Shown: in pieces, positions 24,294 through 34,895 of the stretch | Layout: each line of letters opens with the position of its first letter | Position numbering within the stretch: the stretch's first letter is position 1 | Source: Nitrospira sp. | GTDB taxonomy: Bacteria > Nitrospirota > Nitrospiria > Nitrospirales > Nitrospiraceae | DNA: 64,000 nucleotides | Direction: 5' to 3' | Assembly (NCBI GenBank): GCA_022226955.1 | Contig: CP092079.1 | Coordinates: 672,811 to 736,810 of the forward strand | Program-made: the position numbers and the translations under genes | The notes under the pieces: generated by a model | The model's input: only the letters and a program-made list of their open reading frames with translations | Told to the model about the DNA's origin: nothing | Databases searched by the model: none

Positions 24294-25448
24294 CTACAAG
24301 CTGGAGACGCCGGTCGATGTAGTCGCAATGGCCATTGCTGCAAGCGACGCCTTACATTCGGATGCGACCTGGGCAAATTGATCCACCAACATAGGATCGA
24401 AGTACGTGTTGGCCTGAAGCGCGATTTGCTGAATGGCGTGATCAACCGAGAGCGGCGACCGCCCTGGGGCTTCCGCCGTCAGATGATCGAACGTCTGGGC
24501 AATACTGACAATTCTAGCCAGCAGAGGAATTCCTTCTCCTTGAAGCCCATGCGGATACCCCGATCCGTCCCACCGCTCGTGATGATAGGAAATGACCTGG
24601 CCAACCTCGGCTGGATATCCCAGGGGGAGAATCATCCGCGCACCTGTCTCGCAATGCTCTTTTGAAAGGGCGCTTTCTCCAGGCGGGAGGAGCAGCTCCT
24701 CTAAAAAGTGATAGCTGGGAAGGCTGACTTTGCCGATGTCGTGCAGAAAGGCTCCAATAGCCAAAGACTTTTGTTCTTCCAGGGTTAGGCTGAGGCGATT
24801 GGCGAGCAACGTGGCGTAGAAGCTGACGCGGCTGCAATGATTCAGCAATTGCCGGTCTTTGGCTTCCATGAGATCTAAGAGCAGTGGGAGAAGACTGTCT
24901 GATCCTGGCGAGCCATCTTGCTCCTCTCGTTTTCCAATTGAAAAATAGCTGATTCTGAGCGCGTCCCAGGCACGTTGTCCCTCTGCATCGCCGGCCCATA
25001 AAGCAGTCGAATTGTTCAGGACTTTCCGGAGAAGATCCAAGCGTTGTTTTTTCTCAAGGGTTTGGCTGATGAGGGAAATTAGTTCTGTGATATTAAATGG
25101 CTTGAGTAGATAGCCCGCCGCTCCATGCCGAATGCCTTCCATCGCGGATTTGAGGCTTCCATAGCCGGTAATGATGATCACTTCGATATCGGCATGATCC
25201 TGTTTAATATCTTGCAGAAGGTCGATGCCCTGGCGATCAGGGAGTTTCTGATCCAGTGTAATGAGATCGACGGATTCATGCCTCAAGACGTCGAGGGCGG
25301 CCTGTGCGTTATCGGCCGAATGGATGTTAAAAAATGGCCGCAAGATGACTTTGAGCGCATCGCGCGGTCCGGCTTCGTCATCCACGATCAGAACCGTTGG
25401 CTTTGTTTGGGATCCGGGTTGAGAAATTATTGTATTCATAATGCTCAT
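24294..25448 (-). CDS. response regulator with HD-GYP cyclic-di-GMP phosphodiesterase domain
   Basis: 384 residues from ATG 25448, preceded by GGGGG; in-frame starts at 25478 and 25439 also exist. The receiver domain (about 17-130) has the acidic pair IVDDE, phospho-acceptor Asp66 and Lys at YLLKP. After a linker, an HD-GYP domain (about 195-370) shows LHDIGK (His236, Asp237), HCETGARM and HHERWDGSGYPHG (289-301). Such RpfG-type proteins hydrolyse c-di-GMP when phosphorylated. It has its own likely sigma-54 promoter and follows the sigma-54 activator gene on the same strand. Confidence 0.93.
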   Translation of the reverse strand: MSIMNTIISQPGSQTKPTVLIVDDEAGPRDALKVILRPFFNIHSADNAQAALDVLRHESVDLITLDQKLPDRQGIDLLQDIKQDHADIEVIIITGYGSLKSAMEGIRHGAAGYLLKPFNITELISLISQTLEKKQRLDLLRKVLNNSTALWAGDAEGQRAWDALRISYFSIGKREEQDGSPGSDSLLPLLLDLMEAKDRQLLNHCSRVSFYATLLANRLSLTLEEQKSLAIGAFLHDIGKVSLPSYHFLEELLLPPGESALSKEHCETGARMILPLGYPAEVGQVISYHHERWDGSGYPHGLQGEGIPLLARIVSIAQTFDHLTAEAPGRSPLSVDHAIQQIALQANTYFDPMLVDQFAQVASECKASLAAMAIATTSTGVSSL

Positions 25449-25474
25449 GTACCCCCAACTATATAACCTGTCAA

Positions 25475-25488
25475 GCAATACTCGTTCC
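25475..25488 (-). promoter_or_regulatory. candidate sigma-54 (-24/-12) promoter of the HD-GYP gene
   Basis: Read on the minus strand the sequence is GG, ten bases (AACGAGTATT), then GC, within AGGAACGAGTATTGCTT, close to the consensus GGCACG-N4-TTGC. The -12 GC is 27 bp upstream of ATG 25448, leaving room for a short leader that contains the GGGGG ribosome site. A gene for a sigma-54 activator is immediately upstream on the same strand. Confidence 0.6.
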
Positions 25489-25640: not shown

Positions 25641-27056
25641 TTATTCCTGCACAGGTGGCTCTGATTCTTGACTGCTCCCATTGTCCGGTCGACCGATTCC
25701 TAAGGTATCCATTCGGTATTTCAGCATGCGCCGACTGATTCCTAAGAGATTGGCGGCATGGGTCTGGACGTAGTTGGTTCGCTTTAGTGCATCGAGGATA
25801 ATTTCGCGCTCGAATTCCATGACAGCTTTTTCGAGCGACATACGGCCGGCGAGCGTATCGTCGCGGAGTGAGGATGATCGCGAGTCGCTTTTCAGAATAG
25901 TCGGCAAATGCTCTTGGGTGATCTGGGGGCAATTCTGTGACCAGATAAAGGCTTGTTCGATAATATTTTCCATTTCACGGACATTGCCTGGCCAAGGGTA
26001 GCGAGTGAGCATTTCCAGCGCTTCTTTTCCGAATTCGATGTGCGGACGTTTCTCTTCCTCAACTCGCTTGGCCAAGAAATGCTTGGCGAGCAGGGGAATA
26101 TCTTCGCCACGTTCTCGGAGCGGAGGGAGAAACAGCGAAATGACATTGATGCGGTAGTACAGATCTTCTCGGAATTGTCCCTTGCGCACCATCTCTTCAA
26201 GATTTCGGTTAGTCGCGGCAACGATCCGGACATCGACCTTGATCGATTGGACGCCGCCGATCCTCGTAAACTCCCGTTCTTGGAGAACTCTCAAAAGCTT
26301 GGCCTGGGTCATGGCGCTGAGATCGCCGATTTCGTCTAGAAACAAGGTGCCAGTGTTGGCGAGTTCAAACTGGCCGACACGTCTAGCGGTAGCATCCGTA
26401 AAGGAACCTTTTTCATGGCCGAACAGTTCGCTCTCAATGAGCGTCTCCGGAAGGGCCGCGCAATTCAGCGCAATAAAGGGGCGATCGCGTCGGCCGCTGT
26501 TGTAGTGAAGGGCTTTTGCGACGAGCTCTTTTCCGGTTCCGCTTTCGCCGGTAATCAGCACCGTGGTCCGGCTGTCCGCGACTTGCTCGATCTTCGCGTA
26601 GATTTCCTGCATCCCCTGGCTCTTGCCGATGAGGTTGTGGAAGGCATAGCGCTGGACGACTTGCGCCCTGAGCTGTTTCACTTCGCGTTCGAGCGCCTGC
26701 GAACTGAGCGCCCGGTCGACGACAATGCGTAATTCTTCGACGTCGAAGGGTTTGGATAAATAGTCGGCGGCGCCCAGCTTCATCGCATCGACGGCGGTTT
26801 TGACGGATTTCGTGCCTGTGAGCATAATCACTGGAGTTATCCGGCTTTCTGCCCGAAGCGTTTCCAGCACGGCCAATCCGTCGGTGCCCGGGAGAATGAC
26901 ATCGAGCAGAACCAGATCGGGCCCTTCTTTTCTGAAGGTATCAAGGCCTTCCTGCGCATCCGCGGCCTGGAAGATTTCGTAGCTGGGCTCAAGCACCATC
27001 TTCAGCGAAGTTCGGACGCGGGCTTCGTCGTCGATCAAGAGAACGCGTTTTTTCAT
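25641..27056 (-). CDS. sigma-54-dependent response regulator (NtrC family)
   Basis: 471 residues from ATG 27056. The receiver domain has LLIDDEARV and phospho-acceptor Asp52. The AAA+ domain has Walker A GESGTGKE (170-177), Walker B LFLDEIGD (238-245) and RIVAATNRNLEE. A Fis-type helix-turn-helix is at the C-terminus (HAANLLGISRRMLKYRMD). The sigma-54 contact loop reads GSFTDA (217-222) in place of the usual GAFTGA; GAFTDA-type loops occur in some functional members, so activity is not excluded. The histidine kinase gene lies 22 bp upstream. It probably drives the HD-GYP gene. Confidence 0.94.
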   Translation of the reverse strand: MKKRVLLIDDEARVRTSLKMVLEPSYEIFQAADAQEGLDTFRKEGPDLVLLDVILPGTDGLAVLETLRAESRITPVIMLTGTKSVKTAVDAMKLGAADYLSKPFDVEELRIVVDRALSSQALEREVKQLRAQVVQRYAFHNLIGKSQGMQEIYAKIEQVADSRTTVLITGESGTGKELVAKALHYNSGRRDRPFIALNCAALPETLIESELFGHEKGSFTDATARRVGQFELANTGTLFLDEIGDLSAMTQAKLLRVLQEREFTRIGGVQSIKVDVRIVAATNRNLEEMVRKGQFREDLYYRINVISLFLPPLRERGEDIPLLAKHFLAKRVEEEKRPHIEFGKEALEMLTRYPWPGNVREMENIIEQAFIWSQNCPQITQEHLPTILKSDSRSSSLRDDTLAGRMSLEKAVMEFEREIILDALKRTNYVQTHAANLLGISRRMLKYRMDTLGIGRPDNGSSQESEPPVQE

Positions 27057-27078
27057 GGCTGGACTTTCCACCGTACTC

Positions 27079-28341
27079 CTAGTCTATCGGGAGGGCTGGA
27101 AGATTCACGGAAAACATGGTTCCCACCCCCTCGGTGCTCTCGACCTGAATTTCACCGTGATGCTCTTGAATAATCTGATGCACGATCGTCAACCCCAACC
27201 CCGTTCCCGTATGCTCGCCGCTCGTGTGTTTCGTTGTGAAGAACGGGTCGAAGATATGTTCAAGGTTGACCTTGGAAATGCCGGCGCCGGTATCTTCAAT
27301 CTCAATCTGCGTCCACGCGGTCGCTCCCGGTTTTACTAGCCGGTGAGTTCGCACCTTCAGTCGCCCGCCACCATCTCCCATGGCATCGATCGCGTTCAGC
27401 AAGATGTTCAAGAGCACCTGTTTTATTTGTTGACGATCTAACATGACACGAGGAAGCCCGGAGGCCAACTGTTTTTCAATCTTGATCAGTTTGCTGTCTG
27501 CCTTCACTTCGATGAAATAGAGACAGGAAGTGACGATTTCGTTGAGATCCTCATCCGTCAGCTTCGGCTCCATATAACGGGCGTAGTCCAGAATTTCCTG
27601 AATCAGCCGCTCGATTCGGTGCACATCGTCGAGTACGATGCGGCTGAAGTCACGAATAAATTCTGTGTCGTCCTTTCGTTCCGGAGCCAGCTGGATAAAG
27701 GTTTTGATCGACGTGAGCGGATTCCTGATTTCGTGGGCAAATCCGCCGGCGATCGTTTCCAATGAGCGCAGCCGGTCCGTGCGGCGCATCAGCGTTTGAG
27801 ACTGGTGGAGATCGTCGTTCACTAGAATGGAATCCAGAGCGTTGGCCCCGCTCTGAGCCAGAGCGAGCAGGAGGTCCCGTCCGTCGTCATGATCGAGCGG
27901 CTGGTGCGAGAGAAGGCCGAGCAGGGCAAAGGCGATCAATCGGCCTTTGTTAAGCAGCGCAATCGCCAGTGACGAGTGAGCGGCCTGTAAGGCGTCGGCT
28001 AATTCCGGCTTGATCGGCGGGATATCCGCGGTCGAGAGAATAGACTGTTCGTGGGTGAGCGATTGCACAAGCGTGTGAGTCGGGGCAAAAGAGGCGATTG
28101 CAGCCGAGGTATTCTGGCTGCCGACGGTCATCACGCGGTCATATCGATCATGTTCACGATCCAGCAGGTAAAGCGCGCCTTGACAGGAGGAGGTGGCGTT
28201 GCAGAGTTCGACGAGGATGCGTTCGGCAATAACGGTGCGGTCGGTGAGGGTCCCCATATCCTGGGCAAACCTGGTCAGCCGCTGGAGCGGGGTGAATACG
28301 ATGGGTGACGCGGCGGCCTGGCGAAGAGGCGGGGTCGTCAT
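27079..28341 (-). CDS. GAF-domain sensor histidine kinase
   Basis: 420 residues. An N-terminal GAF-like domain spans about 20-180 (CQGALYLLDREHDRYDRV...). The dimerisation domain has GGFAHEIRNPLTSIKTF with phospho-accepting His203. The ATP-binding domain shows NILLNAIDAMGDGG, DTGAGI, IFDPFFTTK and GTGLGLTIVHQI. No membrane helix is seen, so it is soluble and senses a cytoplasmic signal. It is 22 bp upstream of the sigma-54 response regulator, its likely phosphorylation partner. Confidence 0.94.
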   Translation of the reverse strand: MTTPPLRQAAASPIVFTPLQRLTRFAQDMGTLTDRTVIAERILVELCNATSSCQGALYLLDREHDRYDRVMTVGSQNTSAAIASFAPTHTLVQSLTHEQSILSTADIPPIKPELADALQAAHSSLAIALLNKGRLIAFALLGLLSHQPLDHDDGRDLLLALAQSGANALDSILVNDDLHQSQTLMRRTDRLRSLETIAGGFAHEIRNPLTSIKTFIQLAPERKDDTEFIRDFSRIVLDDVHRIERLIQEILDYARYMEPKLTDEDLNEIVTSCLYFIEVKADSKLIKIEKQLASGLPRVMLDRQQIKQVLLNILLNAIDAMGDGGGRLKVRTHRLVKPGATAWTQIEIEDTGAGISKVNLEHIFDPFFTTKHTSGEHTGTGLGLTIVHQIIQEHHGEIQVESTEGVGTMFSVNLPALPID

Positions 28342-28452: not shown

Positions 28453-31400
28453 TCAGCCAGCGGATTTTCCCTTGCTGGCTGTGGCGAGAAGGAGTTGCCC
28501 ATCTAGGACCGGTACAATTCGAAGCGGAGTTGCTCCGGCATGAGTCAAGAGATCGGACAGTTGCTCGCGGTCAAAGGAGTGCAGTAGTCCGTGGCGAATG
28601 GCTTCATGCAGCCGGCCAAGATAGTGGAGGAAAATTTGAGCGGCCGGAGACAGCTCATCCTGTCCGGCGCGATGCAGCTGTTCACGATAGAGCCCGGCAA
28701 GGTCTGTGTGCGGCTGCAGGCATGTCACGATGAGATGTCCTTCTTGCGTGAGCGTCCTGACGGCCTGTCGCAGAAAGGTGAGCGGAGAGGCGGCAAATGA
28801 CAGGGAGAGATGACTCACGATCCGGTCGGCAGAATCGGGTGTGGTGGGGAGGCGGATATCCCATTCAGCCGTCACCGCGGTTGCCGGAACGGCGGCGGTG
28901 GGGAACATCGATTGCAATTCTTGATACAGCGCTGTGAAGGCCTGTTCCGCGGAGGATATCGTTTCCTGGGAACGGTCGATTCCAAGGTACTGTATGGGGC
29001 GCTGTGGCGCATGCGATGCGTGGAGCTGGTGATACATGCGATTGACGACGAGAGTGTGCGCGAACGCGCCTTCGCCGCATCCGATATCCAGGATGCGCAT
29101 GCCAGGTTCAAGCGGAAGAGCCTGCTGATACAGGTCTTGAAGCAGTCGCACATGGTGATGCAGGGTGTCCAACTGCGGAAGCTGAGCAAGATGTGCGATC
29201 CATAAGGCGTCTCGGGTCGACTGCGAGACATGGTGGCGAATCCGAATGCGCTCACGTTCCAGGAGATATTGTTTGGAAATATCATGGCCGGTCGGCGTAT
29301 GCATGGCCGGCGGCGAGTCCCCGGCGGCGCACACGCGAGCAATCTCTGTAAATAGCGTGTGGAACGATGCAATGAAGCGGGTGTCGAAGGTACGGCCTGT
29401 CACGGATAATGCGCTGGGGATCGAGATTGTGCGTGGCATTGCCCGCAAGGCTCGAAGCGATTTGTCTGGGCTTGGAAAAGGATGCCGCATCGAGGAGTCC
29501 GCTGACGGAGAGTTGAGGATAACCAACGGGATCGTCAGGGCAGACAGATCGGCCACCGTTGTGGCCAGCGTGTCATAGTGGCCGGCGATAGTATTGCCTA
29601 AAAACTGATCGAGGTTGATATTGAGGCCCCACAGATTCCCGCTGCCGCGTCTGAGGCCGTGCCGGTAGTCGGCGAGAAGGTCATGGTGATGCCCGGTCGA
29701 CAGTGCGGTTTGAATATCGAGCACCGGGTTGGCCAGCAAAAGCAGATGAGCTGCAGGATGTTGTGTGACGACTTTCAGGGCGACCCGGGCCGCGACATCT
29801 TCGGCCAAGATGGCGAGCGAGGCCGTGGGCCATGTCGTATGCGCGAATTCGAGAACTGTGCGCAGATCGGCTTGCATGCCTCGGAGTGTGGTCTGAAGGA
29901 CATCGCCATCGCTTTGTCCAATATGGTTGCTATAGTCATAGCGCAGGACACGGAGCCGATTGAGGGCCAAGAATTCCGACAGCGCGACATAGTCGGTCTG
30001 GGTGCCGCCGAAGCCGGGCGAGAGAATCACGATCGGCGTATTGGGGGAGATCTGGTGGCGCGCATGATCGTCGGTGATCGCGATGACTTGGCCGCGCGCG
30101 TTCCGGCATTCTCGTCTGGCGCTGACAATGACGGCACGGCTGGCAATTCCATCCAACTCGATAGAGGAGCCGATGTGCTGCGCCACGACGCGATTGACCT
30201 CGCGTTCGGCGAAGGCTGGCAGTTCATCGAATCGGACGCCGAAGCGTTGCCCCGGTTCAGTGGGGGCCGGACGGAGTTCTGAGGGAACGGTGGTATCCAG
30301 AGCGGTCCACACGATTTGCGCTGGGAGCACGGCATCCGGTGCAGCCGGTTCGTGAGGCGATGCATGCGTCAGATCGTGACTGTGGGGAAAATGTAAGCGG
30401 ATTGTTTCGCCCACATGGCCGGGAAGCGTTTTCGCCTGCAGGCAGGCTCCTCCGCGTGAGAAATTCACCGCCAGCCCAAGTTGCCGAGAGGCAGGATTCT
30501 GTTCGTGAGATTGCTCAATCCGTATTGGAAGCGCGATGCGGACCCGGATGCTTTCCCGGTGGTCGTTTGACAGGCGGTCTGAACCGGTCTGATCCGGGCG
30601 CGTGCTTTCATCCGGTTGGGAGAGCAATGCCTCCAGGCTGATCTCCAGGTTCCGCTTTTGGGCGGCCTCGATGAATGAGCCGAGGACCTTTTGCTCGATC
30701 TCGCTGGACGGAGAAAATTCGAAGGCGAGGACTGAGTGGTTTCCTGCGTCAGTGGATGGTTCGGTCTGTGTGCCACTACGGTCGTGAACCGTGGCGTGAA
30801 GCTCCAGAATTCCTACGATGGTTTTGAACACCAAATAGGCCGATTGCTCCGATAGGTTCGGCAGCGGTCCGGTTAGGGAGACGGTGGCTCCGATCAGGCT
30901 TAAGGTATGAACGATTCCCTCGCGCACCGAAGGACCGACCGTCACTCGCGCTGAGAGGTGGACTGCGGCACGCGTGGCCAGTCTCCGATCCGGGAGCAGT
31001 CTGTCCGAAAGAGGAGGCAGTGGGGTTTCATGAGGAATGGCGCTTGTCGCTGGCAGAGGAAGCTCCGGCTGGCCTAGCAGCGCCTCTGTCGGCGCGTCAG
31101 GGACTCGAGGCTTTTCAGGAATCGGCAGCCATAGGCGGACGGAGAGCGGCTGCCTTGCTGGAGCGAGCCACTCCATGCGGCCCTGTAGCTGGTTGAGGTC
31201 TTTATAGGCCTGGATGAGATCCGGAGAGGCCGGTAGCGAGTCGGTTGTGATCGCCGCTGCCGAATCAGTTTCCTGAATCAAAATCTCGACCTCTCGAAGC
31301 GTTGGTTCGGGAAAGAAGCTGGGCGCCTGATCGATAGAGATTCTAGTGGCCGTGATGGTTTGCGCGAAAATATTCAGGCGGTGCATCGCATGGCGGGCAG

Positions 31401-32610
31401 CCATCTGACGAATCGCCTGGATGACCACAATCTGAATGATTCGCACCCAGATAGTCCGGGAATTGCCAACGTCCAAAATGTCGGTTGTATCGTGGTGCTG
31501 CGCGATGTCGAGATGAGCAATGGGAGTCAGGGCGTCGGTCATGATGTGGCGTAGTGTATCTTCGGCAAGACTGGCATCGACGACAGCCTGAGCCAGCGCG
31601 TCCCTGCATGCCGAGGCTTCCCGCGCATGCGCAGTAAGGGCGTCAAGACGAGTCTCGAGCTGAGCGTCGCGGATGGTTTCCATGAGTCGCTGGGACTGGG
31701 TCAGCACTTCGGAGAGGGGTGTGTGCAGCTCATGCGACAAGTTGCTCAAGCGCTGTGCCATTGTGCGATGACGATCCGATTCGAGCAGTCTCGTTTCAAG
31801 GCGCTGAATGGTTTCGGTTTGTACGAGATGTCCGGTCATGTCCCGGATAAGTCCAAGCGTGCCGGTATAGTGTTGGCGCGCGTCATAGAGTCCCTTGGCA
31901 CTGATTTCCGTCCGCACGCGCGCCTGATCGGAGTCTGTGAGCTGAGGTTTCTTGAGTAGTTCAAGCAAGACACGGCGCGCGGCCCGAGGGCCTGTGCGAC
32001 GGTCATCGATGCGATATTGTGCGCACGTTTGTTGGTCGGCGGGAATCAGTTTGGAAAAAGGGACGCCGGTCAGTTCTTCAGGCTGGTAGCCTAGCAGTGC
32101 GGTGATTCCAGGGCTAATGAAGAGAAACCGCCCGGTGGCATCAATTTCATAAAATATATCTGTGAGTGTGTCCAGCAGATGCGTGTGCCGATCGCGTGTG
32201 CGCACGAACATGGCGCGGAGATGGCGTTGTTCGACAGCACCCTTGGTGTAGAGCACCAATTCGGTCAGAAAGGCGGGTGACTTTTTGAACAGGATAAAGT
32301 TGGCGCCGGCTTGCAGCGCCGTCACGGCGGCAGTCGGATCACTCCGGTCGGTCAGAATCACGATCGCGGTGGTTGGGAGGCGTTCTCTGAAGGTGGCAAC
32401 CAGCGACGGACGGGTCTGGAGCCCGAGCGGCTCATCGATCAGAATCAGGTCCCACTCAGCATGACTCACCCATCGAAGCGCTTCTTCGGACGAATACACC
32501 GATTCGACTCGGCAATCGGGGAAGAAGCTACGGAGGCTTAGCGTCACCAGCTTGATGTCGTCGGCCTGTTCATTGACGACGAGGACCGTAATCGGCTCAT
32601 TCTGTGGCAT
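28453..32610 (-). CDS. giant hybrid: REC-PAS-kinase-like-PilZ-PilZ-hydrolase-like-methyltransferase
   Basis: 1,385 residues from ATG 32610 (GGAAGTGG upstream); the frame is open to a TTG or other start at 32670. Order: receiver domain about 7-120 with Asp59; PAS about 145-262; HisKA-like helix with NLSHELHTPLSEV (His293); a segment to about 500 with no recognisable ATP-binding motifs; weak PilZ about 540-650; canonical PilZ about 684-805 with RESIR (Arg685, Arg689) and NFSRGG (716-721), expected to bind c-di-GMP. Then a LuxD-like alpha/beta-hydrolase region about 840-1095 (SPGFGG, YDYSNHIGQSDGD) where the nucleophile elbow reads AILAEDVAARV, without the usual Ser; and a methyltransferase about 1140-1375 with LDIGCGEGAF. 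Codon use is even, with no sign of frameshift. Probable role: c-di-GMP or phosphorylation input controlling the C-terminal domains. Not recognised as a known family. Confidence 0.85.
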   Translation of the reverse strand: MPQNEPITVLVVNEQADDIKLVTLSLRSFFPDCRVESVYSSEEALRWVSHAEWDLILIDEPLGLQTRPSLVATFRERLPTTAIVILTDRSDPTAAVTALQAGANFILFKKSPAFLTELVLYTKGAVEQRHLRAMFVRTRDRHTHLLDTLTDIFYEIDATGRFLFISPGITALLGYQPEELTGVPFSKLIPADQQTCAQYRIDDRRTGPRAARRVLLELLKKPQLTDSDQARVRTEISAKGLYDARQHYTGTLGLIRDMTGHLVQTETIQRLETRLLESDRHRTMAQRLSNLSHELHTPLSEVLTQSQRLMETIRDAQLETRLDALTAHAREASACRDALAQAVVDASLAEDTLRHIMTDALTPIAHLDIAQHHDTTDILDVGNSRTIWVRIIQIVVIQAIRQMAARHAMHRLNIFAQTITATRISIDQAPSFFPEPTLREVEILIQETDSAAAITTDSLPASPDLIQAYKDLNQLQGRMEWLAPARQPLSVRLWLPIPEKPRVPDAPTEALLGQPELPLPATSAIPHETPLPPLSDRLLPDRRLATRAAVHLSARVTVGPSVREGIVHTLSLIGATVSLTGPLPNLSEQSAYLVFKTIVGILELHATVHDRSGTQTEPSTDAGNHSVLAFEFSPSSEIEQKVLGSFIEAAQKRNLEISLEALLSQPDESTRPDQTGSDRLSNDHRESIRVRIALPIRIEQSHEQNPASRQLGLAVNFSRGGACLQAKTLPGHVGETIRLHFPHSHDLTHASPHEPAAPDAVLPAQIVWTALDTTVPSELRPAPTEPGQRFGVRFDELPAFAEREVNRVVAQHIGSSIELDGIASRAVIVSARRECRNARGQVIAITDDHARHQISPNTPIVILSPGFGGTQTDYVALSEFLALNRLRVLRYDYSNHIGQSDGDVLQTTLRGMQADLRTVLEFAHTTWPTASLAILAEDVAARVALKVVTQHPAAHLLLLANPVLDIQTALSTGHHHDLLADYRHGLRRGSGNLWGLNINLDQFLGNTIAGHYDTLATTVADLSALTIPLVILNSPSADSSMRHPFPSPDKSLRALRAMPRTISIPSALSVTGRTFDTRFIASFHTLFTEIARVCAAGDSPPAMHTPTGHDISKQYLLERERIRIRHHVSQSTRDALWIAHLAQLPQLDTLHHHVRLLQDLYQQALPLEPGMRILDIGCGEGAFAHTLVVNRMYHQLHASHAPQRPIQYLGIDRSQETISSAEQAFTALYQELQSMFPTAAVPATAVTAEWDIRLPTTPDSADRIVSHLSLSFAASPLTFLRQAVRTLTQEGHLIVTCLQPHTDLAGLYREQLHRAGQDELSPAAQIFLHYLGRLHEAIRHGLLHSFDREQLSDLLTHAGATPLRIVPVLDGQLLLATASKGKSAG

Positions 32611-32937: not shown

Positions 32938-33936
32938 TTACGGATTCGCCCGTGCGATATTGGCAGTTCGGCAAGCGCCTGGAGTCATATAGAGAAGATA
33001 GTTCCCCATGCCATATTGGAATTCCGTTTTCTGCAGCGGATGATGATGGACCATCACCATGTCGTAGTCGCCCGATTGCAGGACGGAAAATCCTTGGCCG
33101 TCCTTATACACTTGATGAGGCTGGAACTCCCGAAAGGTTCCATCGAGGTCCACATCCGGCACCGTTCGAAGAAGGGTGCGTTTGTTTGCCTTGTCTTCAA
33201 GTGCGATCATCAACAATTCATCGTGGCCATGGGGATAGGCAAATTTCACGCAGCCATCCATCGAGAATTTTAGTGGCTCTGTATGCACTTGGACTCCGGG
33301 GCGGATTTCAATGCCTTCGTCCGTTTGATTGGCGCCGCGTGAGCCAAACTTGCTGTAGCAGACGATATTGACGCCCACCTGATAGACATCCATTTCCTTC
33401 ACCGGCTTAGACTTCGGCGCCATGTACATCGTGAACGACGCCATCACATTTTTCGTCGGAGGGGCCTTGTGATAGAAGGCGACGACCGACATGAGGCGGT
33501 CGCCTTTGGCCAGCTTGACGCCATATCCTTCTGGAAACCGGGCTTCGGTCATTTCCAGACCGGCGCCCGCGAAGAACAGCGGCTCTCCGGGGCAAGAAAC
33601 GCTGGGTTTGGTGTTGTTCATCATCAAGATATGGTGAAGGTAATTTCTGGGGAGTTCCTTGCCTTCTTTGGTAAAGACCGCCGATTTATACCCGACCATG
33701 TACATGTCTTCAGGCAGCTGAAAGTTATGCTTCGGCATTGAGGCAGCCAGGTCGCCGTCATGATCGGTCGGCAGATCGATAGGACCGAAGGTCAGGGTGA
33801 CGGTGTCATCTTTAATGGTAACTGTCGTTGTCGTTTGATTTTTCAGTGTGGGGACGGCGTGATGGTCATGGCCACCGTCGGCAAATGCCGGGGCGCCCAT
33901 CAGCACAGTGAGAGAAGCCACGAGTATCCAATACAT
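32938..33936 (-). CDS. secreted PHM-like copper type II monooxygenase-fold protein
   Basis: 332 residues from ATG 33936, preceded by GGGAG; an upstream in-frame start at 34050 would bury the signal peptide. A clear signal peptide (1-19) leads to a His-rich N-terminus. Candidate copper ligands fall in the same order and similar spacing as in peptidylglycine hydroxylating monooxygenase: His101-His102 (LHHILMMNN), His156, His236-x-His238 (YPHGHDELL) and Met310 (YGMGNYLLYM); the mammalian enzyme has HH, H about 64 later, HxH about 70 later and M about 70 later. Function is unknown. A SnoaL-like gene lies upstream on the same strand. Confidence 0.7.
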   Translation of the reverse strand: MYWILVASLTVLMGAPAFADGGHDHHAVPTLKNQTTTTVTIKDDTVTLTFGPIDLPTDHDGDLAASMPKHNFQLPEDMYMVGYKSAVFTKEGKELPRNYLHHILMMNNTKPSVSCPGEPLFFAGAGLEMTEARFPEGYGVKLAKGDRLMSVVAFYHKAPPTKNVMASFTMYMAPKSKPVKEMDVYQVGVNIVCYSKFGSRGANQTDEGIEIRPGVQVHTEPLKFSMDGCVKFAYPHGHDELLMIALEDKANKRTLLRTVPDVDLDGTFREFQPHQVYKDGQGFSVLQSGDYDMVMVHHHPLQKTEFQYGMGNYLLYMTPGACRTANIARANP

Positions 33937-34013
33937 AATATCTCCCAGAGAAGGTGAAGGTGCCTGTGTGCGAGAGCGTTGGTTTGGGAAGAAAAGAATA
34001 GGCGGTATTCGGA

Positions 34014-34895
34014 TCATTGGATTTGGATAGGCTGCGTGAGCCGTTTCCATTGATAGGTGCCGCCATGTTCACGCGGGGGAATATTTTTATGTGTGCCGAC
34101 CCGGGAATACCACCAGACACCCTTGGCTTGCATGCCATCTTCCGACAAGAGGAGTTCGAATCCGCCCTCGCGGTCGTTGCCGGGTTGTTGCCAGGTGCCT
34201 TGCCAGAGGCGATCGGCGATCTTCGTCGTCGTAAAACGTCCACCATGCTGGGTATAGGGGCCATTGCCGGTTTTATCCAGGGTGGCCTTGTAGCGTTTGT
34301 CGTCCTCGACTTCCAGAATTTCCCATTCACCGCTCAGATCTAAGATCTGGGTGCGGATCATGCCTGGGTCGGCGACGAGTTGTGGCGCTGGGACCGTAGA
34401 CTGTGTATGAGCCACAGCGGGCCAGTTGGCGGCCCGGAGCGATTCGTGCCATGAGATTAACAGCCATTGGCCCTGCCGCTTTTCAAGCACGCCGCTTTCC
34501 CGCAAGGGGATGACCGTATGGTGAACCTCGCCACCTTCGTTGACGAAACGGATATAGTCCAGTTCCATCGTAAACCAGGCCAGGTCGTTTTTTGTCCAGA
34601 CCTTGAGGTCGGCGATGGGCATTTCCAGTTTTTCCACAAAAGCGAATTCGTCGCGAATGTCGCGCTCCAACGCCGGCCATCCCAGGTATTTTCTCCCGCC
34701 GATGGTATAACCCGTGGCGTCGTCGTCGTGCGCCATCAACCGGGACATGCCCTCAAGGTCTCGTGCGGCGTTGGCTTCCACAAGCGCGCGGATTGTGGCT
34801 TCAGGCCCTGCGTTGTCATTGGCGAATCCGAGGACTGGGGCAAACAACAGATATCCTGACAAGACGAAAAAAGAGATCCGAGTCAGATCGGGCAT
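34014..34895 (-). CDS. secreted SnoaL/NTF2-like domain protein
   Basis: 293 residues. A signal peptide (about 1-25, ending FANDNAG) is followed by a DUF4440/SnoaL-like cone fold (about 30-150): ATIRALVEANAARDLEGMSRL, WTKNDLAWFTMELDYI and WLLISWHES. The C-terminal 130 residues (GEWEILEVEDDKRYKATL... RLWQGTWQQPGNDREGGFELLLSE) form a separate beta-rich, lipocalin-like region. It is in the same direction and 77 bp upstream of the PHM-like gene, so the two may act together in the periplasm. Substrate unknown. Confidence 0.8.
   Translation of the reverse strand: MPDLTRISFFVLSGYLLFAPVLGFANDNAGPEATIRALVEANAARDLEGMSRLMAHDDDATGYTIGGRKYLGWPALERDIRDEFAFVEKLEMPIADLKVWTKNDLAWFTMELDYIRFVNEGGEVHHTVIPLRESGVLEKRQGQWLLISWHESLRAANWPAVAHTQSTVPAPQLVADPGMIRTQILDLSGEWEILEVEDDKRYKATLDKTGNGPYTQHGGRFTTTKIADRLWQGTWQQPGNDREGGFELLLSEDGMQAKGVWWYSRVGTHKNIPPREHGGTYQWKRLTQPIQIQ

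Follow-up and report, generated by a model that had tools for sequence, protein, structure and literature searches.

In the window analysed here, a stretch of 64,000 nucleotides from Nitrospira sp., a single gene encodes a protein (hereafter the giant) composed, in order, of receiver, PAS, degenerate histidine kinase, PilZ, PilZ, LuxD-type hydrolase and class I methyltransferase domains (Table 1). We put at about one half the probability that it is a cytoplasmic pseudoenzyme regulator, which would respond to c-di-GMP and modulate the adjacent cascade of kinase, NtrC-type regulator and HD-GYP protein. Comparison of loci indicates that its hydrolase–methyltransferase pair is an older enzyme, of which an intact sister form exists, and that the neighbouring kinase changed alongside. 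The giant would then allow the passage from fused enzyme to regulatory pseudoenzyme, with a dead kinase alongside, to be traced inside a single bacterial phylum; the intact ancestor-like form persists and, in one genus, does so within the same cell as the dead form.

Table 1 Coordinates of the giant, its domains and the neighbouring cascade within the window
Feature	Coordinates	Strand	Basis or remark
Giant protein gene, 1,385 aa	28453..32610	minus	Full-length homologues; ATG at 32610; mechanical ORF to 32670
Receiver domain	32278..32586	minus	Pfam and motif table
PAS domain	31837..32181	minus	Pfam and fold match
Degenerate histidine kinase (DHp and CA fold)	31111..31818	minus	hhalign, Foldseek, motif table
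PilZ domain 1	30631..30996	minus	Pfam and motif table
PilZ domain 2	30181..30561	minus	Pfam and motif table
LuxD-type acyl thioesterase/transferase fold without Ser-Asp-His triad	29296..30135	minus	Asp938 at 29797-29799
Class I SAM methyltransferase domain	28528..29157	minus	DxGxGxG and acidic ribose residue kept here
Soluble GAF-HisKA-HATPase histidine kinase	27079..28341	minus	Motifs intact; neighbour
NtrC-type sigma-54 response regulator	25641..27071	minus	
Receiver and HD-GYP c-di-GMP phosphodiesterase	24294..25478	minus	HHERWDGSGYP present

Domain architecture and catalytic residues

The minus strand is open throughout the gene, and a plus-strand reading was ruled out by stop codons all along the plus strand. 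Homologues share the ATG at 32610 ('MPQSEP') as their start, which coincides with the end coordinate given by the first-pass annotation of this DNA. Pfam searches matched receiver (2e-10), PAS (1e-6), HisKA (weak, 5e-3), PilZ (3e-11, two stretches), Acyl_transf_2/LuxD (4e-14, also Hydrolase_4) and methyltransferase (5e-10, several methyltransferase models). Together with fold and profile matches and with full-length homologues of the same order in several genomes, these results bear out the seven domains that the annotation had placed in one 4.2-kb frame and mark the giant as one conserved protein. Its statement that no described family has this domain order agrees with our literature search, which lay mostly outside subscription journals and found no published description of the architecture. 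Phage protein families gave weak generic matches only, and the sigma-54 promoter pattern occurred at a frequency no higher than chance.

Within the sensor half, the receiver keeps its phospho-acceptor Asp59, Thr and Lys, and its Mg2+-binding acidic pair reads Asn-Glu. The AlphaFold model of the N-terminal half (pLDDT 64, pTM 0.28) is weaker than that of the C-terminal half; its PAS-DHp-CA stretch matches histidine kinases in Foldseek at this low pTM. Profile comparison by hhalign relates the kinase-like region to the neighbouring kinases with 97.8% probability. Despite this fold and profile homology, the N, G1 and G2 ATP-site motifs are absent, as had been noted for the stretch after the His box, and a conserved phospho-acceptor motif is missing as well: the giant has a His in its box (SHELHTPL), relatives carry SKTL, SRQL or STHL, and the box is thus not conserved in the family. 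PilZ2 has complete RxxxR and NxSxxG motifs, in agreement with the first reading of the sequence. PilZ1 keeps RxxxR and has T-L-S-x-x-G as its second motif, with T replacing D/N; in many relatives this motif is [DN]xSxxG. Among the motifs tabulated, those of PilZ are the best preserved, and by these residues the PilZ domains are of the c-di-GMP type.

The C-terminal half was modelled with a pLDDT of 76. Foldseek ranks the Vibrio myristoyl-ACP thioesterase 1tht first among PDB matches to it (E 5e-14, target TM-score 0.76), ahead of further hydrolases and of class I methyltransferases. The loss of the nucleophile Ser noted in the first-pass annotation is borne out: in the HMM alignment to 1tht, Asp938 of the giant faces Ser114, the Ser of AASL, and in the core alignment the three triad positions hold Asp, Ser and Val in place of Ser-Asp-His. 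The catalytic Asp and His are therefore gone along with the Ser. LuxD/myristoyl-ACP thioesterase (1tht, PF02273) remains the closest solved relative in both sequence and fold, and the intact sister forms share its Ser-Asp-His. The giant differs from it in its fully lost triad and in the fusion of the hydrolase to methyltransferase and sensor domains; NCBIfam LuxD matches the hydrolase at 54 bits against a cut-off of 420 bits.

Two states of the hydrolase–methyltransferase core

Judged by its aligned residues, the hydrolase–methyltransferase core forms a family of the Nitrospirota that exists in two states, one short and intact, the other long and dead. Short forms of 547-1,187 aa (1,641 aa when kinase-fused) keep both the Ser-Asp-His triad and the SAM motif. 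Long forms typically have Asp for Ser and lack the other two triad residues. Among the fetched loci, 40 are intact and 73 dead; for this count we merged two tables and removed duplicate contigs as well as locus L174, which is too distant for safe alignment. The Ser of the dead loci is replaced by Asp (67), Gly (3) or Asn (3). Outside six early-branching loci the Asp is found in 67/67, and the other triad positions drift.

The neighbouring kinase follows the state of the core. Where a kinase lies in reach, a 7TM-GAF histidine kinase adjoins all 37 intact loci, and a soluble GAF kinase of ~420 aa adjoins 67 of 68 dead ones. The exception, L039 (f2), has Asn for Ser, retains the Asp and His, and is still adjoined by a 7TM kinase; for three dead forms that branch early (L046, L172, L173), no kinase gene lies at the locus. 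L046:7349-11656, which belongs to the long forms, has Gly at the nucleophile position, an intact SAM motif and a pseudo-kinase, and is a possible intermediate. L168:7883-12808, counted among the 37 intact loci, encodes a single 1,641-aa protein of PilZ-PilZ-hydrolase-methyltransferase and 7TM-GAF histidine kinase, a fusion that argues for the core and this kinase acting together.

In a careful tree, from which the long-branch rows L172, L173 and L174 were left out and near-copies thinned, a single branch separates all dead rows from the others (support 94/96, recovered in 94% of 200 bootstrap trees), which suggests that the triad was lost in essentially a single event rather than many times independently. 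In a quick tree of all rows the dead ones, 42 without L174, likewise group together. Loss of the triad and loss of the 7TM part share one stretch of the tree with no independent repeats, so their correlation may be historical. Both forms occur in genus g12, where 20 genomes have two core matches and the fetched copies were read as intact and dead, several on closed chromosomes. A search of the window's own closed genome for a second intact core found only methyltransferase-like fragments elsewhere.

In a scan of named genomes with a single peptide pattern, full-core matches were confined to Nitrospirae. Beyond Nitrospirota, sampled genomes yielded no relatives in the phylum of a Syntrophales bin (0/297) or in 20 genomes from assorted other groups; two of 398 genomes of the Rhizobium phylum matched, both single-domain in 310-aa frames of about LuxD size.

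Conservation of the methyltransferase bears on what the giant still does. The first-pass annotation had taken this domain for the single active enzyme of the C-terminal half. The giant and its nearest relatives do keep the SAM motif DIGCGEG and the acidic GIDR intact, and a working methyltransferase here is possible; this conservation does not extend across the dead form. All five scored SAM-site residues are kept in 40/40 triad-intact loci and in 13/73 dead loci, the giant included, and in sister genera the GxGxG motif contains R, H, S or T, or the acidic residue is replaced by G, E or R, with architecture and synteny unchanged. A c-di-GMP-controlled methyltransferase, in which the N-terminal half and the dead hydrolase would serve as sensor and substrate-binding parts, would fit the intact motifs and a methyltransferase dN/dS of 0.15. 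Given how many triad-less relatives have dispensed with the SAM site at the same conserved locus, we consider it unlikely.

Synteny, selection and the proposed regulatory role

Of 34 other genomes of the genus, 13 have full-length homologues, at 43-83% identity, and such homologues occur throughout the family. Same-genus loci share one order: upstream, a SnoaL-domain gene and one that matches nothing in Pfam, then the giant, the GAF kinase, the NtrC regulator, the HD-GYP regulator and recN. This single syntenic place and the many homologues rule out an assembly fusion or a frame artefact, and the identity range, with a dN/dS of about 0.15 in the closest clade, excludes chance. The upstream pair is conserved in most loci. 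Its genes, at 32938-34050 and 34014-34895, encode a protein of 370 aa that matches no Pfam model and one with a SnoaL_3 domain, and neither showed any relation in sequence to the cascade.

Selection was estimated in two clades. In the close clade of six sequences, the whole-gene dN/dS of about 0.15 resolves into receiver 0.07, hydrolase 0.11, PilZ2 0.12, methyltransferase 0.15, pseudo-CA 0.22 and linker 0.65. The second clade gave 0.28 for the whole gene and higher values per domain (0.2-0.4). On these substitution rates, the dead hydrolase domain is under strong purifying selection.

Part of the genus lacks the giant. In all 12 same-genus loci checked that are without it, the flanking sequences meet and leave no trace of the gene, and the kinase, NtrC regulator and HD-GYP regulator stay, which indicates that the cascade does not need it; the NtrC regulator is present in 31/34 same-genus genomes. 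In two further genomes (G002 and G001) the giant is broken in frame. At the G001 locus (L038) it lies in about seven frames between intact flanking genes, representing either a pseudogene or local assembly errors. These broken frames and the clean absence from about half of same-genus genomes are what a decaying relic without present function would leave. Such decay is improbable, however, for a gene that tens of genomes from several genera carry unbroken, at a length of about 1,385-1,435 aa, with whole-gene dN/dS of 0.15-0.28 and its PilZ and receiver residues kept. Changed chemistry, in which Asp938 would be the nucleophile, like the Asp of haloalkane dehalogenases or epoxide hydrolases, would account for the invariant Asp at the nucleophile elbow of the later dead loci and for the strong constraint on the domain, but it is highly improbable, as Asp-nucleophile enzymes require a His and neither a conserved His nor a second acid occupies the catalytic positions.

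Our preferred reading, a pseudoenzyme regulator, would begin with a two-domain enzyme, a methyltransferase joined to a LuxD-like acyl thioesterase/transferase, whose gene lay next to that of a 7TM-GAF sensor kinase. This ancestral enzyme would have gained the N-terminal receiver, PAS, PilZ and kinase module; hydrolase catalysis would then have been lost, once on the tree used, and the neighbouring kinase would have lost its membrane sensor. In the resulting protein, the PilZ domains most likely bind c-di-GMP, and the old enzyme folds most likely bind a small ligand such as an acyl chain, acyl-ACP or SAM. Control would run, as we infer it, from the giant to the adjacent soluble kinase, whose activity it would set, perhaps by direct contact through the dead DHp-CA module. 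The NtrC-type regulator and the HD-GYP phosphodiesterase, whose genes come next, are presumably driven by this kinase, in which case c-di-GMP would feed back on itself.

This regulatory role is supported by the shared gene order of giant, kinase, NtrC regulator and HD-GYP regulator in the full-length same-genus loci, the match between kinase type and triad state, the placing of the dead rows beyond one branch of the careful tree, the LuxD fold with its lost Ser, the hydrolase dN/dS of 0.11 and the fixed Asp, as well as by a pseudo-kinase homologous to the neighbouring kinases, the kept PilZ motifs and the co-occurrence of intact and dead copies in g12. Against it we count the 12/12 clean absences, the unrepeated joint loss of triad and 7TM sensor, the L039 exception and the higher dN/dS of the second clade.

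Among known systems, those of the RpfC-RpfG type link a kinase with a receiver-HD-GYP regulator, a pairing also present at the giant's locus. They differ in that the locus has an NtrC regulator, no RpfF-like synthase was seen there, and the dead-enzyme giant is without counterpart. The NtrC regulator itself is PrsR-like (443 bits, below the 502-bit cut-off of TIGR02915), and the L039 7TM-GAF kinase aligns over its full length to PrsK, the PEP-CTERM/exosortase kinase (165 bits, below the 300-bit cut-off of TIGR02916).

The intact form and a proposed stepwise growth of the core

At the loci of the deepest intact forms, L177 and L178, a FabF-type beta-ketoacyl-ACP synthase gene adjoins the core and a 7TM kinase follows it; L177 also has an HD-GYP regulator. 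A synthase, the fused thioesterase-methyltransferase and a 7TM kinase stand in series at both loci, which makes them candidates for a complete signal-synthesis and sensing operon. Between giant and kinase, L039:7161-8756 encodes a fusion of a PilZ domain with a FabH-like beta-ketoacyl-ACP synthase III. A beta-ketoacyl synthase beside the core was found in only 3/69 fetched loci scanned; as a general partner it is thus ruled out, and we treat it as supportive.

A LuxD-like thioesterase, a methyltransferase and an adjoining synthase point to a product of acyl origin. That this product is a signal, as in PhcB/PhcS, is suggested by the 7TM kinase encoded next to the core. In Ralstonia, PhcB-PhcS-PhcR constitute a fatty acid methyl ester quorum-sensing system (PMC8578825, PMC11960443). 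By this functional analogy, which makes no claim of homology, a methyltransferase-made lipid signal is sensed by a histidine kinase, and the intact short form may be an undescribed lipid-signal synthase. The Nitrospirota methyltransferase differs from PhcB in its fusion to a thioesterase-like domain and in having NtrC and HD-GYP neighbours, not PhcA; the window's giant, moreover, is without a hydrolase active site. More tentatively, and with considerable doubt, we envisage an undescribed Nitrospirota system in which the intact form makes a diffusible acyl signal (e.g. a methyl ester), the 7TM-GAF kinase senses it, and the Nitrospira-lineage copy became a c-di-GMP-tied intracellular receptor through loss of catalysis. 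Nitrospira and its relatives are major nitrite oxidisers. If the intact form does make a lipid signal, it would open a candidate route of cell-cell signalling among them, linked to c-di-GMP and, through it, perhaps to the formation of biofilms.

The architectures suggest that the core grew stepwise by successive N-terminal additions. It stands bare in L177, follows a degenerate N-terminal PilZ-like part in f3, and follows two PilZ domains in L167-L169, with a separate receiver-PAS-PilZ gene just upstream of the core gene in L169. The arrangement receiver-PAS-PilZ-PilZ-core occurs with an intact triad in L170 and with the Ser lost in f2. The Nitrospira form has these parts plus the pseudo-kinase, and its triad is wholly lost.
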